DNA of 64,000 bases, from positions 1,983,141 to 2,047,140 of the forward strand of contig OX638324.1 of NCBI GenBank assembly GCA_951812825.1, given 5' to 3'. The translations under genes and the position numbers were made by a program. Shown one piece after another: positions 26,885-32,961 of this stretch. The stretch comes from an uncultured Dehalococcoidia bacterium (lineage in GTDB: Bacteria > Chloroflexota > Dehalococcoidia > Lucifugimonadales > GCA-2712585). How positions within the stretch are numbered: the stretch's first letter is position 1; every line of letters starts with the position of its first letter. Below the pieces are notes generated by a model that did not search any database, was not told the DNA's origin, and was given only the letters and a program-made list of their open reading frames with translations.

Positions 26885-26973
26885 ACCGCTCAAGCTAACA
26901 CGGGGGTAAACGCGTGGAGTTTTCCTATGGGGATTAGCCACGCCAAGAAGTTAGGGAAGAAAAGGAGATGCTC

Positions 26974-28938
26974 ATGAGAATCCTAAGACAACGCTCGAGA
27001 TGGTTGCCGGTAGGCCTGCTAGCGCTGGCCGCCCTGCTGACCGTCTTCATTGTTGCGTGCGGAGGAGATGACGAGGAGCCGGAGGCACCGGCAGCGCCGA
27101 CGGCAGCGCCTGCCCCCGCGCCAACGATGGCTGCTACGCCGCCGCCAACGATGGCGCCAACGGCCGCGCCCGCCCCGACGATGGCGCCAACAGCAGCGCC
27201 CGCCCCGACGCCAACGATGGCGCCAACGGCAGCCCCGGCACCAACGGCGCCACCAACGCCGACGCGACAGAGATTTATTCCCGAGGTGACAGAGACACCC
27301 ACACCAGAGCCGACGATGGCTCCAGAACCGGTAGAGTCACGGCTGAAGGTGGCGATTCCCACGCCGAGCTACCAGTTCACCATGCAGCACGCGGCCAACC
27401 AGATTGACGCAAGAATTATGCCGATCTACTCGCACATGGTAGGGCATCATCCGAAGACCAACGTGCAGGAGCCTCAGCTGGCAACCAGTTGGGAGATGGA
27501 GGCGGATGGGAAGACGTACACTTGGAACCTTCGGGAAGGCGTACCGTTCTACAAGAACGCCGAACCCGTAGGCATTGAGTTCAGCGCCAAGGACACGGTG
27601 CATTCCTTCGGCATTTTCGCAGGAGATGTCAGCGAGAGGGTAAGGACCGGACGGCCCGAGTTCGGGATACCGGTTGACGCCGACATTGTGAATGACTACC
27701 AGGTAGTGGTCCGCCTAGCCCAGGTTTCGCTGGACTTGCCATTCCTGCTTTCTGACGAATGGTCAACAGGCGTCAGCAGCAAGGACTGGTGGGATGAGAA
27801 GGGCGAAGACGGCTACTTCGAGGACCCCATCGGCACGGGACCCTGGAGCTATATCGAGCTCAAGACCAATGAGCACGTTATCCACGAGCGGGTGCCGAAC
27901 CACTGGAGAATCACCCCCGAGTTCCCGGAGATCCAGTTCATCTTTGTACCTGAGTCGGCCACTCGGCTGGCAATGCTTATTGGTGGAGAGTCCCACATCT
28001 CTGCCATTCCGAGGGACTTGCATAACCAGGCAGAAGAGCGGGGAATGTTGATATCCAAGAGCACCCTGCCCGCCGTGCACACGCACATCCGCTACTCGTT
28101 CTTCAAGCCGGACAACTACGTGAATCCGGAGACGGGCGAAAGTGCGCCGGGCCAGGTTGCTCACGGGCCGACAGTTGGGTACGATCCCAACGACCCGCTG
28201 CGGAATCCGAAGGCTCGCGGCGCACTAAACCACGCTATCAACTACAACGAGATCAACGATACCTTCTTTGAAGGGGAAGGGTACCCACTGGTGGACTACT
28301 TCCCGCCTTGGCGGAATGACTTCAAGGACGAGTGGGCTCCGGTACCCGGGATCGATGGCAAGACCGGTCGCGACGGCGGTTGGCCCTATGCTTACGACCC
28401 GGACAGGGCGAAGGAACTGCTGGTGGAGGCGGGATACCCAGACGGTTTCGAGACTACGCTGGTAGCCGCCAGCGGACAGTCCGTCATTCAGGAGCAGGGC
28501 GAGATCGGCGAGGTGATCAGAGGTTACTGGGAAGCCATTGGAGTCAGGACCAAGCTGGTGACGGTGCCTGTGGGAGACGTGCTGGGCATGTGGGCGGCCC
28601 GAGATCAGTCCAACACTTCCTACCTGGTGTCGCCGTCCCTAGACCCCATCTGCGTGGCCATGAGCTTCTCGTACTACGAGCGCGGACGGACGATTTGGGA
28701 CCACCAGGAGATCTCCGATTACTACGCGGCGTGCACCCAGTCGACGGACCTGGACGAGCGGCTTCAGCTGGCCCAGGGTCTGGGCGACTGGTGGGTTGAA
28801 AACCACGTAAGCGCGCCCATCACCTGGATCTTCGCCTTCGCCGCGATTAACCCAAACGTGGTGCAGGAATACCAGGTGAACATGCTGCACATGGGACCGA
28901 TCCGATACCACGAGTACACGATACCTGTGTACCAATAG
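26974..28938 (+). CDS. ABC transporter substrate-binding lipoprotein (peptide/nickel family 5)
   Basis: A 654-residue family 5 extracellular solute-binding protein. An N-terminal signal ends in the lipobox IVAC (Cys29), so it is membrane-anchored outside the cell. Residues 31 to about 115 are a low-complexity Ala/Pro/Thr/Met linker with repeated PTMAPTAAPAP units. The SBP domain follows from LKVAIPTP, with the family's GTGPWSYIELKTNEHV block. ATG 26974 is preferred over 26968 because AAGGAG then lies six bases upstream. No permease or ATPase gene is beside it, so it is an orphan binding protein, likely for oligopeptides or a similar large solute. Confidence 0.88.
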   Translation: MRILRQRSRWLPVGLLALAALLTVFIVACGGDDEEPEAPAAPTAAPAPAPTMAATPPPTMAPTAAPAPTMAPTAAPAPTPTMAPTAAPAPTAPPTPTRQRFIPEVTETPTPEPTMAPEPVESRLKVAIPTPSYQFTMQHAANQIDARIMPIYSHMVGHHPKTNVQEPQLATSWEMEADGKTYTWNLREGVPFYKNAEPVGIEFSAKDTVHSFGIFAGDVSERVRTGRPEFGIPVDADIVNDYQVVVRLAQVSLDLPFLLSDEWSTGVSSKDWWDEKGEDGYFEDPIGTGPWSYIELKTNEHVIHERVPNHWRITPEFPEIQFIFVPESATRLAMLIGGESHISAIPRDLHNQAEERGMLISKSTLPAVHTHIRYSFFKPDNYVNPETGESAPGQVAHGPTVGYDPNDPLRNPKARGALNHAINYNEINDTFFEGEGYPLVDYFPPWRNDFKDEWAPVPGIDGKTGRDGGWPYAYDPDRAKELLVEAGYPDGFETTLVAASGQSVIQEQGEIGEVIRGYWEAIGVRTKLVTVPVGDVLGMWAARDQSNTSYLVSPSLDPICVAMSFSYYERGRTIWDHQEISDYYAACTQSTDLDERLQLAQGLGDWWVENHVSAPITWIFAFAAINPNVVQEYQVNMLHMGPIRYHEYTIPVYQ

Positions 28939-30994: not shown

Positions 30995-32098
30995 ATGGCA
31001 AGGGCCTCCGGAACTCCTGAACACGATGATCACGGCCATGATGGGCATGACCATAGTGCTCATGACGAGCACGGGGGTGACGCCCACGGGCATGATGACC
31101 ACGAGGGGCATGGGCATGACGATCACGGCGACCACGGGCATGAGGGACATGACCACTCTGCGCATCTGAGGGAAACCAGCAGGCGCAGCTTAGTAATAGC
31201 CCTGGTGCTAATCGGCGGCTTCATGATAGTCGAGGTCATTGGCGGGATATTGTCCGGCAGCCTGGCCCTTATTGCTGACGCCGGCCATATGATCACGGAC
31301 GCCGCGGCCATTGCCCTGGCCCTGTTTGCTCTCTGGGTGTCCGGGCGGCCTGCCTCCGTGGAACGGACCTTTGGGTATCACCGCGCCGAAGTCCTGGCGG
31401 CGATGCTAAACGCCCTCAGCCTTTGGGTGATAGCCGCCTACATCTTCTTCGAGGCCTATCACCGCATCTTTGAGGACACGCCGCATATCGAGGGTGGTCT
31501 CATGCTGGTGGTGGGGACTATCGGGCTGGTAGTGAACATTGTTGCAGCATTCGTCCTCCACCGATCAGCCGGAGAGAGTCTGAACGTGGAGGGCGCGTTC
31601 CTGCACGTCATAGCGGACCTCATAGGTTCCGTTGGAGTTGTAATTTCCGGCATCATTATCGTCACCACGGGCTGGGTGATAGTTGATCCAATCCTCAGCA
31701 TACTGCTTGGCATTCTTATTATCGTCAGCACCTGGCGGCTGGTAGTGAAGGTGTTCAACGTGCTGCTGGAGGCTGTGCCGGAACACATTGACGTTTACGC
31801 CCTCTGCGGCGACATGGAGGATCAGGAGGGGGTGACGGTGATTCACGACGTCCACGTTTGGACTATTTCTTCAGGGTACGACGCTTTGACCTGTCACATT
31901 CTGCTGGACCCTGAACTCTCCACAGAAGAGGTGGATCCCCTGCTTCGGCGGCTGAGGGAGATTGCGATGAAGAAGCACGGCATCAGCCACGTTACGATTC
32001 AGGTGGAGCAGAACGTGGAAGGCTGCACGGAGTTTGATCATGCGGACCATCTGGTAGCAATGAAGCGAAGTCCCGTGAGGAAGCTTCTTCCCTTCTGA
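30995..32098 (+). CDS. Cation diffusion facilitator metal exporter (CzcD/ZnT-like)
   Basis: A 367-residue CDF transporter. Residues 9-57 are a His/Asp loop with 18 His, cytoplasmic in this family. Six hydrophobic helices follow. The metal site of helix 2 is HMITD (His98, Asp102) in ALIADAGHMITDAAA, and the helix 5 pair is in FLHVIADLIGS. The C-terminal domain contains HDVHVWTISSG, the ferredoxin-like metal-sensing fold of CzcD. It exchanges cytosolic Zn2+ (or Co2+, Cd2+, Ni2+) for protons. GGGGGG lies seven bases before ATG 30995. It is convergent with the His/Cys repeat gene, and two strong hairpins separate them. Confidence 0.93.
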   Translation: MARASGTPEHDDHGHDGHDHSAHDEHGGDAHGHDDHEGHGHDDHGDHGHEGHDHSAHLRETSRRSLVIALVLIGGFMIVEVIGGILSGSLALIADAGHMITDAAAIALALFALWVSGRPASVERTFGYHRAEVLAAMLNALSLWVIAAYIFFEAYHRIFEDTPHIEGGLMLVVGTIGLVVNIVAAFVLHRSAGESLNVEGAFLHVIADLIGSVGVVISGIIIVTTGWVIVDPILSILLGILIIVSTWRLVVKVFNVLLEAVPEHIDVYALCGDMEDQEGVTVIHDVHVWTISSGYDALTCHILLDPELSTEEVDPLLRRLREIAMKKHGISHVTIQVEQNVEGCTEFDHADHLVAMKRSPVRKLLPF

Positions 32099-32136
32099 CG
32101 AGACGAACAATCCAGCCCTAAGGCGGAGGAACCAAA

Positions 32137-32170
32137 GGGCGCGGGACATATGTCCCGCGCCCTGCTTTTT
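32137..32170 (+). terminator. Terminator after the CDF gene
   Basis: A perfect 26-base palindrome (32137-32162; arms GGGCGCGGGACAT and complement) followed by TGCTTTTT. It lies 38 bases past the CDF stop codon. Confidence 0.8.
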
Positions 32171-32210: not shown

Positions 32211-32244
32211 AAAGGCAGAGGGCATTTTGCCCTCTGCCTTTTGG
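32211..32244 (-). terminator. Bidirectional hairpin terminator
   Basis: Perfect 14-base arms (AAAGGCAGAGGGCA and complement) with the loop TTT and T or A tracts on both flanks. It lies 75 bases downstream of the His/Cys repeat gene on the minus strand and is well placed to stop transcripts from either side. Confidence 0.75.
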
Positions 32245-32318: not shown

Positions 32319-32822
32319 TTAAGCGTGGTGCTCGTGGTCGTCACACTCGTGGGGGTCGTGGACGTGGGCGTGATGCTCATGCTCGTCGCACTCGTGGATA
32401 TCGTGGACGTGGGCGTGATGCTCATGCTCGTCGCATTCGTGGATGTTGTGGACGTGGCCCGGCTTATCGGCGTGGTGCTCATGCTCGTCGCACTCATGGA
32501 TATCGTGGACGTGGGCATGGTGTTCATGCTCGTCGCATTCGTGGATATCGTGGACGTGAGCGTGGTGCTCATGCCCGTCGCACTCGTGGACGTTGTGGAG
32601 GTGGCCTGATTCGCCTCCATGGTGCTCGTGCTCGTCGCACTCGTGGACATCATGGACGTGAGCGTGGTGCTCGTGGTCGTCGCACTCGTGGATGTTGTGG
32701 ACGTGGCCCGGCTTATCGGCGTGGTGCTCATGCTCATCGCACTCGTGGATGTCGTGGACGTGGGCGTGATGCTCGTGTCTGTCACACTCGTGGGTATCAT
32801 GCACGTGGTCGGTAGTTACCAT
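32319..32822 (-). CDS. His/Cys-rich repeat protein, probable metal-buffering protein
   Basis: A 167-residue protein made of a five-residue lead (MVTTD) and ten 15-residue repeats of consensus HVHDIHECDEHEHHA. Four-residue spacers (DKPG, GESG, DKPG) follow repeats 2, 4 and 7, and the repeat after each spacer carries Asn at position 4. By my count it has 60 His and 10 Cys, about 36% His. No signal peptide or membrane segment is visible, so it is probably cytosolic. AAAGGGGGG lies close to ATG 32822. The facing CDF exporter suggests Zn2+, Ni2+ or Co2+ buffering or delivery. I do not recognise a named family; Hpn-like and metallothionein-like proteins are functional analogues only. Confidence 0.82.
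   Translation of the reverse strand: MVTTDHVHDTHECDRHEHHAHVHDIHECDEHEHHADKPGHVHNIHECDDHEHHAHVHDVHECDEHEHHGGESGHLHNVHECDGHEHHAHVHDIHECDEHEHHAHVHDIHECDEHEHHADKPGHVHNIHECDEHEHHAHVHDIHECDEHEHHAHVHDPHECDDHEHHA
32322..32807. repeat. Tandem 45-base coding repeats (ten units)
   Basis: The DNA of the His/Cys repeat protein consists of ten 45-base units, three of them followed by 12-base spacers. The units are very similar at DNA level, so expansion and contraction by recombination or slippage is likely. Confidence 0.85.
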
Positions 32823-32934
32823 ATTCCCCCCTTTAATATAGTATTTCGCCGACGCTTAGTTTACGAAGTCCGCCATTGCAGCGATTCGGCGCACCACAAG
32901 TTGCCATAAACCGACGAAAAGGTCAAGCAAAATA

Positions 32935-32961
32935 GATACAATGTATCGAATGAGATATAAT
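32935..32961. promoter_or_regulatory. Operator-like dyad and -10 box between the repeat protein and fhs
   Basis: GATACA-A-TGTATC (32935-32947) is a perfect 13-base dyad. Nine bases further right is TATAAT (32956-32961), oriented for fhs; the dyad then covers the -35 position, where no good -35 hexamer is seen. It could be a repressor or activator site for fhs or for the divergent repeat gene. Confidence 0.5.

Follow-up and report, generated by a model that had tools for sequence, protein, structure and literature searches.

HECD-repeat genes: a His/Cys repeat family associated with zinc transporter genes in sponge-symbiont-type bacteria of two phyla, with a predicted role in cytosolic zinc buffering

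The window, i.e. the whole 64,000-nucleotide stretch of DNA analysed here, contains a gene coding for a protein of His/Cys-rich repeats, referred to as the HECD-repeat gene, which converges on a gene coding for a CDF exporter. The units and spacers listed below were read from the translation, the gene itself being further identified by purifying selection and family membership, and the exporter by profile matches and by HxxxD in TM2 and TM5; the remaining features were read from the sequence.

32319-32822, minus strand: HECD-repeat gene, coding for a predicted cytosolic His/Cys metal-buffer protein of 167 aa
32763-32807, minus strand: unit 1, HVHDTHECDRHEHHA
32718-32762, minus strand: unit 2, HVHDIHECDEHEHHA
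32706-32717, minus strand: spacer DKPG behind unit 2
32661-32705, minus strand: unit 3, HVHNIHECDDHEHHA
32616-32660, minus strand: unit 4, HVHDVHECDEHEHHG
32604-32615, minus strand: spacer GESG behind unit 4
32559-32603, minus strand: unit 5, HLHNVHECDGHEHHA
32514-32558, minus strand: unit 6, HVHDIHECDEHEHHA
32469-32513, minus strand: unit 7, HVHDIHECDEHEHHA
32457-32468, minus strand: spacer DKPG behind unit 7
32412-32456, minus strand: unit 8, HVHNIHECDEHEHHA
32367-32411, minus strand: unit 9, HVHDIHECDEHEHHA
32322-32366, minus strand: unit 10, HVHDPHECDDHEHHA
32826-32834, minus strand: Shine-Dalgarno sequence AAAGGGGGG
32935-32947, no strand assigned: dyad GATAC-ATT-GTATC (GATACATTGTATC), about 125 bp upstream of the HECD-repeat gene, weak candidate for an operator
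32211-32241, no strand assigned: GC-rich hairpin between the convergent genes, possible two-way terminator, with a short T tract
32136-32163, plus strand: textbook intrinsic terminator serving the CDF gene
30995-32098, plus strand: CDF exporter gene, ZitB-like Zn-CDF, convergent with the HECD-repeat gene
31019-31168, plus strand: His-rich cytosolic N-terminal segment of the CDF exporter, 18 His

Translation of the gene reproduced the layout given by the sequence-only reading, namely five residues followed by ten 15-mers and three 4-residue spacers, and its counts of 60 His and 10 Cys, to which 27 Glu and 22 Asp can be added. The spacers lie behind units 2, 4 and 7, and Asn occupies position 4 of units 3, 5 and 8, as had been noted. 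This Asn-after-spacer pattern is confined to the window protein, its relatives having Asp behind long linkers, and the 15-residue period is equally particular to the window member. Tandem Repeats Finder returned periods of 45, 102 and 147 bp for the array, which correspond to a single unit and to two or three units plus a spacer. When the ten units were compared with each other, the variable columns fell at codon positions 1, 2 and 3 in a ratio of 3/3/12, and pS (0.55) largely exceeded pN (0.07), thereby indicating that the His/Cys frame is the selected frame. The gene is present in a single copy in the 2.47-Mb single-contig genome to which the window belongs.

The ribosome-binding site reported earlier for the gene is indeed a good one, and relatives carry AAGGAG-type sites before the start codon nearest to the first unit. 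The terminator attributed to the gene was upheld in part: the hairpin is strong (about −26 kcal/mol on either strand), but only three T residues follow it on the minus strand. A search of the whole window against Rfam gave no match. The motif TGATAC/GTATCA of the upstream dyad was found in 13 of 38 upstream regions of the family compared to 21 of 206 for other genes (P = 4×10−4, Fisher's test, for a motif chosen post hoc), and in 2 of 31 regions upstream of CDF genes, i.e. without enrichment. We make no claim for the dyad as an operator, the evidence being too weak and post hoc. A GATAC-n3-GTATC dyad also occurs upstream of the related locus L061.

The statement that the repeat unit belongs to no named family was confirmed by the lack of any match in Pfam, NCBIfam or the PDB, the latter searched with both sequences and profiles. 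Against Pfam-A and NCBIfam, the window protein gave sub-threshold chance matches only (JTB, 12.8 bits for a cut-off of 22.1; spore protein H, 16.5 bits for a cut-off of 106), and the acidimicrobial member L037 gave none at all. The search with the whole protein, proposed at the outset, returned no described metallothionein or Hpn-type family.

Relatives were nevertheless readily found among genomes. When 84,980 species genomes were scanned for exact HECD[D/E/R]HEH peptides, at least 45 loci emerged, and 49 distinct relatives were collected from Dehalococcoidia/SAR202 (Chloroflexota) and Acidimicrobiia (Actinomycetota), the groups to which all relatives with a named organism belong. They are present in 14 of 294 genomes of the window's class and in 15 of 296 genomes of Acidimicrobiia, while among 400 genomes sampled evenly across the phylum the window genome alone was positive. 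Among their sources, MPND (bin90), MPNN (bin127) and MPNA (bin76) are genome bins obtained from the sponge Aplysina aerophoba (Table 2 of PMC5649159), and judging by their names alone, bins APA, RHO, IRC and COS fit a study of sponge metagenome-assembled genomes (PMC8163846). The hosts of the family appear to be sponge-symbiont-type bacteria of two phyla. Profile and exact-pattern searches of viral contigs detected no relatives, nor did tblastn against plasmids, where the low-complexity filter of BLAST may hide matches. We found no literature on His-rich proteins in sponge SAR202.

The core of the unit, H-x-x-H-E-C-D-x-H-E-H-H, is nearly constant. In 229 units, the His at −3, H-E-C and H-E-H-H are all invariant and Asp follows Cys in 228, although only the His at −3 (229/229) and the lack of further Cys do not depend on the pattern used in the search. 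Each of the 49 distinct stand-alone proteins has as many Cys as units (227 for 227) and no Cys or HEHH outside them, and dN/dS between orthologues ranges from 0.02 to 0.19. Intact multi-unit genes code for two (2 proteins), four (34), six (6), eight (5) or ten (1) units, never an odd number; with ten units of the form H-x-x-HECD-x-HEHH and one Cys in each, the window protein belongs to this family. The three-unit cases are frame-broken, with a broken start (L054), or masked by N (L103). A 17-aa single-unit ORF, read by eye at 1400-1560 of L092 (genome G654), faces the remnant of a CDF C-terminus and belongs to a second cassette copy that has decayed.

The proteins consist of 35% His, 5.7% Cys and 33% Asp/Glu, with a single aromatic residue in 4001. 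His runs do not exceed two residues, successive Cys are 15 to 26 residues apart, and CC, CxC and CxxC are absent from all 49 proteins. Since none contains a hydrophobic run of more than five residues, they lack a signal peptide. AlphaFold predicted only disorder for the window protein (28 alignment rows) and a four-unit member (22 rows), with pLDDT of about 45, which is what would be expected of a metal-free disordered protein and is not counted here as support.

The CDF exporter that the gene had been said to face is encoded at 30995-32098 in convergent orientation. Its 18 His were correctly counted, but they lie in an N-terminal extension rather than in an internal loop. The exporter combines a Cation_efflux domain, HxxxD in TM2 and TM5 and a His-rich terminus, as expected of the Zn-CDF group, for which HxxxD in TM2 and TM5 is the signature (PMC1868760); this motif is present in 33 of 33 CDFs compared. 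Its best NCBIfam equivalog is ZitB, at 258 bits, below the cut-off of 408, followed far behind by DmeF at 108 bits.

The association with the exporter is not restricted to the window. A His-rich Zn-type CDF gene lies directly downstream in 35 of the 45 stand-alone loci, window included, and in both phyla (19 co-directional and 16 convergent). Genes of the ZnuA/ZnuB uptake type occur near the HECD-repeat gene in 15 loci, several of these ZnuA proteins having His-rich stretches. In five loci devoid of a CDF gene (L021, L028, L041, L054 and L059), they lie upstream on the same strand, a relation that was computed for all of these but L054. In six others, ZnuABC, HECD-repeat, CDF and FUR genes form one cluster; in L045, the order on one strand is HECD-repeat gene, CDF, FUR and znuA/C/B. 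FUR-family genes are found in 7 of the 45 loci, and five loci have no zinc transporter or FUR gene within the fetched flank of about 5 kb. Among the neighbours that we examined, none was identified as a urease gene. When the 294 class genomes were compared, a close CDF (E ≤ 1e-110) was detected in 11 of the 14 that carry an HECD-repeat gene, always adjacent to it, compared to 8 of the 280 that do not (P = 9×10−13, Fisher's test), counts and P values that overstate independence because loci and genomes share kinship. Moreover, a pair of HECD units is fused to the N-terminus of the CDF in one locus of Acidimicrobiia (L048) and one of Chloroflexota (L038), so that in both the units come to lie on the cytosolic face of the exporter. 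In a CDF tree built without an outgroup, Acidimicrobiia form one group (94/87) inside Chloroflexota (99/97), beside the window CDF, a topology that fits a possible transfer of the cassette between phyla.

As a control, we inspected eight genomes of the class that have the close CDF and lack the HECD-repeat gene. In three (G185, G245 and G288), a different repeat protein of 85-87 aa is encoded just upstream of the CDF gene and co-directionally with it (L114:1321-1578, L115:867-1130 and L116:3239-3502, from genomes of the same order). This protein resembles the HECD protein in its His/Cys-rich composition and its position beside the orthologous exporter, but its unit is HCHEHGxx, with about one Cys per eight residues, and it matches no Pfam or NCBIfam family. 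G227 encodes an HCHEHG protein on a small separate contig, the CDF contig stopping at the CDF gene, and a marginal match in G270 (E = 8e-4) was left out of the count. In G079, G109, G200 and G211, a gene coding for a ZnuA-like protein (ZnuA by resemblance) adjoins the CDF gene. HCHEHG and HECD proteins did not co-occur, the former being undetected in the window genome. The CDF partner slot seems to be filled by differing His/Cys proteins, which suggests that a small metal-binding partner of the exporter is itself under selection. At L118:2712-2900, a 62-aa Cys/His-rich ORF containing HCCCCEDSNC and matching no family lies close behind a CDF gene of the same type.

Several known proteins invite comparison. 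Like Hpn and Hpn-2 of Helicobacter pylori, HECD proteins are small and His-rich with some Cys, are predicted to be cytosolic and to sequester metal, and are found in one ecological group. However, Hpn contains two pairs of Cys and is linked to urease and nickel (PMC4671568), whereas HECD proteins have isolated Cys within HECD instead of the paired Cys of Hpn and Hpn-like proteins, short His runs, one-third acidic residues, and a coupling to Zn-type CDF and ZnuABC. Bacterial metallothioneins of the SmtA type are likewise small Cys-containing cytosolic metal buffers, as predicted here, but they are defined by clusters of CxC or CxxC, while HECD proteins have widely spaced Cys, no Pfam match and His as the probable main ligand. 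SilE, a silver-binding 'molecular sponge' encoded in the sil efflux operon, acts in the periplasm, where it binds Ag+ (PMC5008109); the HECD protein would share with it intrinsic disorder, metal binding and a gene located beside an efflux system, but has no signal peptide and neighbours a CDF gene rather than sil genes. Finally, AtMTP1 and ZnT exporters carry a cytosolic His/Asp-rich zinc-binding segment (PMC1868760), and it is to such a segment that HECD pairs are fused in L038 and L048; in contrast, the HECD protein stands alone and has an ordered, Cys-containing unit conserved in sequence and not in composition alone. The working may resemble that of Hpn, metallothioneins or SilE, yet the defining features of each are lacking. 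We class the HECD proteins as a new family whose functional kind is known.

The gene being nearly always beside zinc transporter genes, its product is probably a zinc buffer or hand-over protein. Judging from the sequences and their neighbourhoods, we favour, with a probability of roughly 0.68, a cytosolic and disordered zinc buffer of high capacity, which would load the CDF exporter or cooperate with it. Each unit would offer one thiolate and several imidazoles as Zn(II) ligands, and if one Zn were bound per unit, the window protein might, at a guess, hold ten. By taking up surplus cytosolic zinc, the protein would lower free zinc, and could release its load to the adjacent CDF, whose cytosolic N-terminus is His/Asp-rich, thereby feeding or protecting the exporter. 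At loci where ZnuABC uptake genes precede the gene, the zinc may be kept as a reserve.

This last role might even be the main one, in place of a partnership in export, the protein being filled by ZnuABC and emptied on demand under zinc scarcity. The five CDF-less loci, in which the gene lies directly behind znuB, and the six combined clusters speak for such a store, but the exporter is the commonest and most constant neighbour and the fusions are to the exporter, so that we regard a reserve as possible though doubtful.

The strict evenness of unit numbers suggests working pairs, with the reservation that many members share their parity by descent. A bolder form of the buffer reading, in which each pair builds a defined Cys2/His-rich, possibly multinuclear zinc site and passes zinc directly to the CDF N-terminus, is put forward tentatively, as a fairly unlikely option. 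If correct, the HECD protein would serve a CDF as its dedicated zinc metallochaperone, common to two phyla of sponge symbionts; we know of no description of such a partner in bacteria.

The same buffering and export task could be performed with another metal, such as Ni or Co, in the manner of Hpn or DmeF, or Cu or Cd. The metal is not fixed by the type of exporter, since the Zn-CDF group also includes DmeF-like Co/Ni exporters (PMC1868760), and in vitro, Hpn and other proteins rich in His bind Ni, Cu, Zn and Bi (PMC4671568). The far better match of the window CDF to ZitB than to DmeF and the clustering with ZnuA/ZnuB-type genes, however, make a metal other than zinc unlikely.

To our knowledge, stand-alone zinc buffers are few in bacteria and mostly Cys-based metallothioneins. 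A His/Cys repeat family without a name, constrained in sequence and linked to zinc transporters in abundant uncultured symbionts of the sponge type, in two phyla, provides a test case for zinc buffering and hand-over to a CDF exporter. Its members with two or four units (36-72 aa), such as the two-unit L061 (42 aa) and the four-unit L037 (72 aa), have a size that allows direct synthesis and spectroscopy.

A RecQ helicase encoded in the window's genus (L063:4506-7118, G004/G650) contains a 34-residue HECD pair between helicase motifs II (DEAH) and III; its genome has neither a stand-alone HECD-repeat gene nor a CDF match, and no such insert is present in the RecQ of the window genome. The insert is exactly as long as the 102-bp period seen in the window array and is identical to it at 75 of 102 bases, as would be expected of a mobile in-frame repeat spreading without any role in metal handling, the stand-alone genes being incidental. 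We consider this very improbable, as the insert is the sole such case found, whereas the stand-alone genes have their own Shine-Dalgarno sequences, strong purifying selection and constant transporter neighbours. That the array is a chance low-complexity ORF on the strand opposite another gene or a DNA repeat can practically be dismissed: further open frames do run across it, but this reading is already contradicted by the predominance of third-position substitutions in the His/Cys frame and by the maintenance of that frame in 49 distinct relatives. Elsewhere in the window, the gene at 26968-28938 codes for a solute-binding-like protein with an Ala/Pro/Thr-rich repeat region near its N-terminus, which corresponds to tandem repeats of about 30 bp at 27114-27258.
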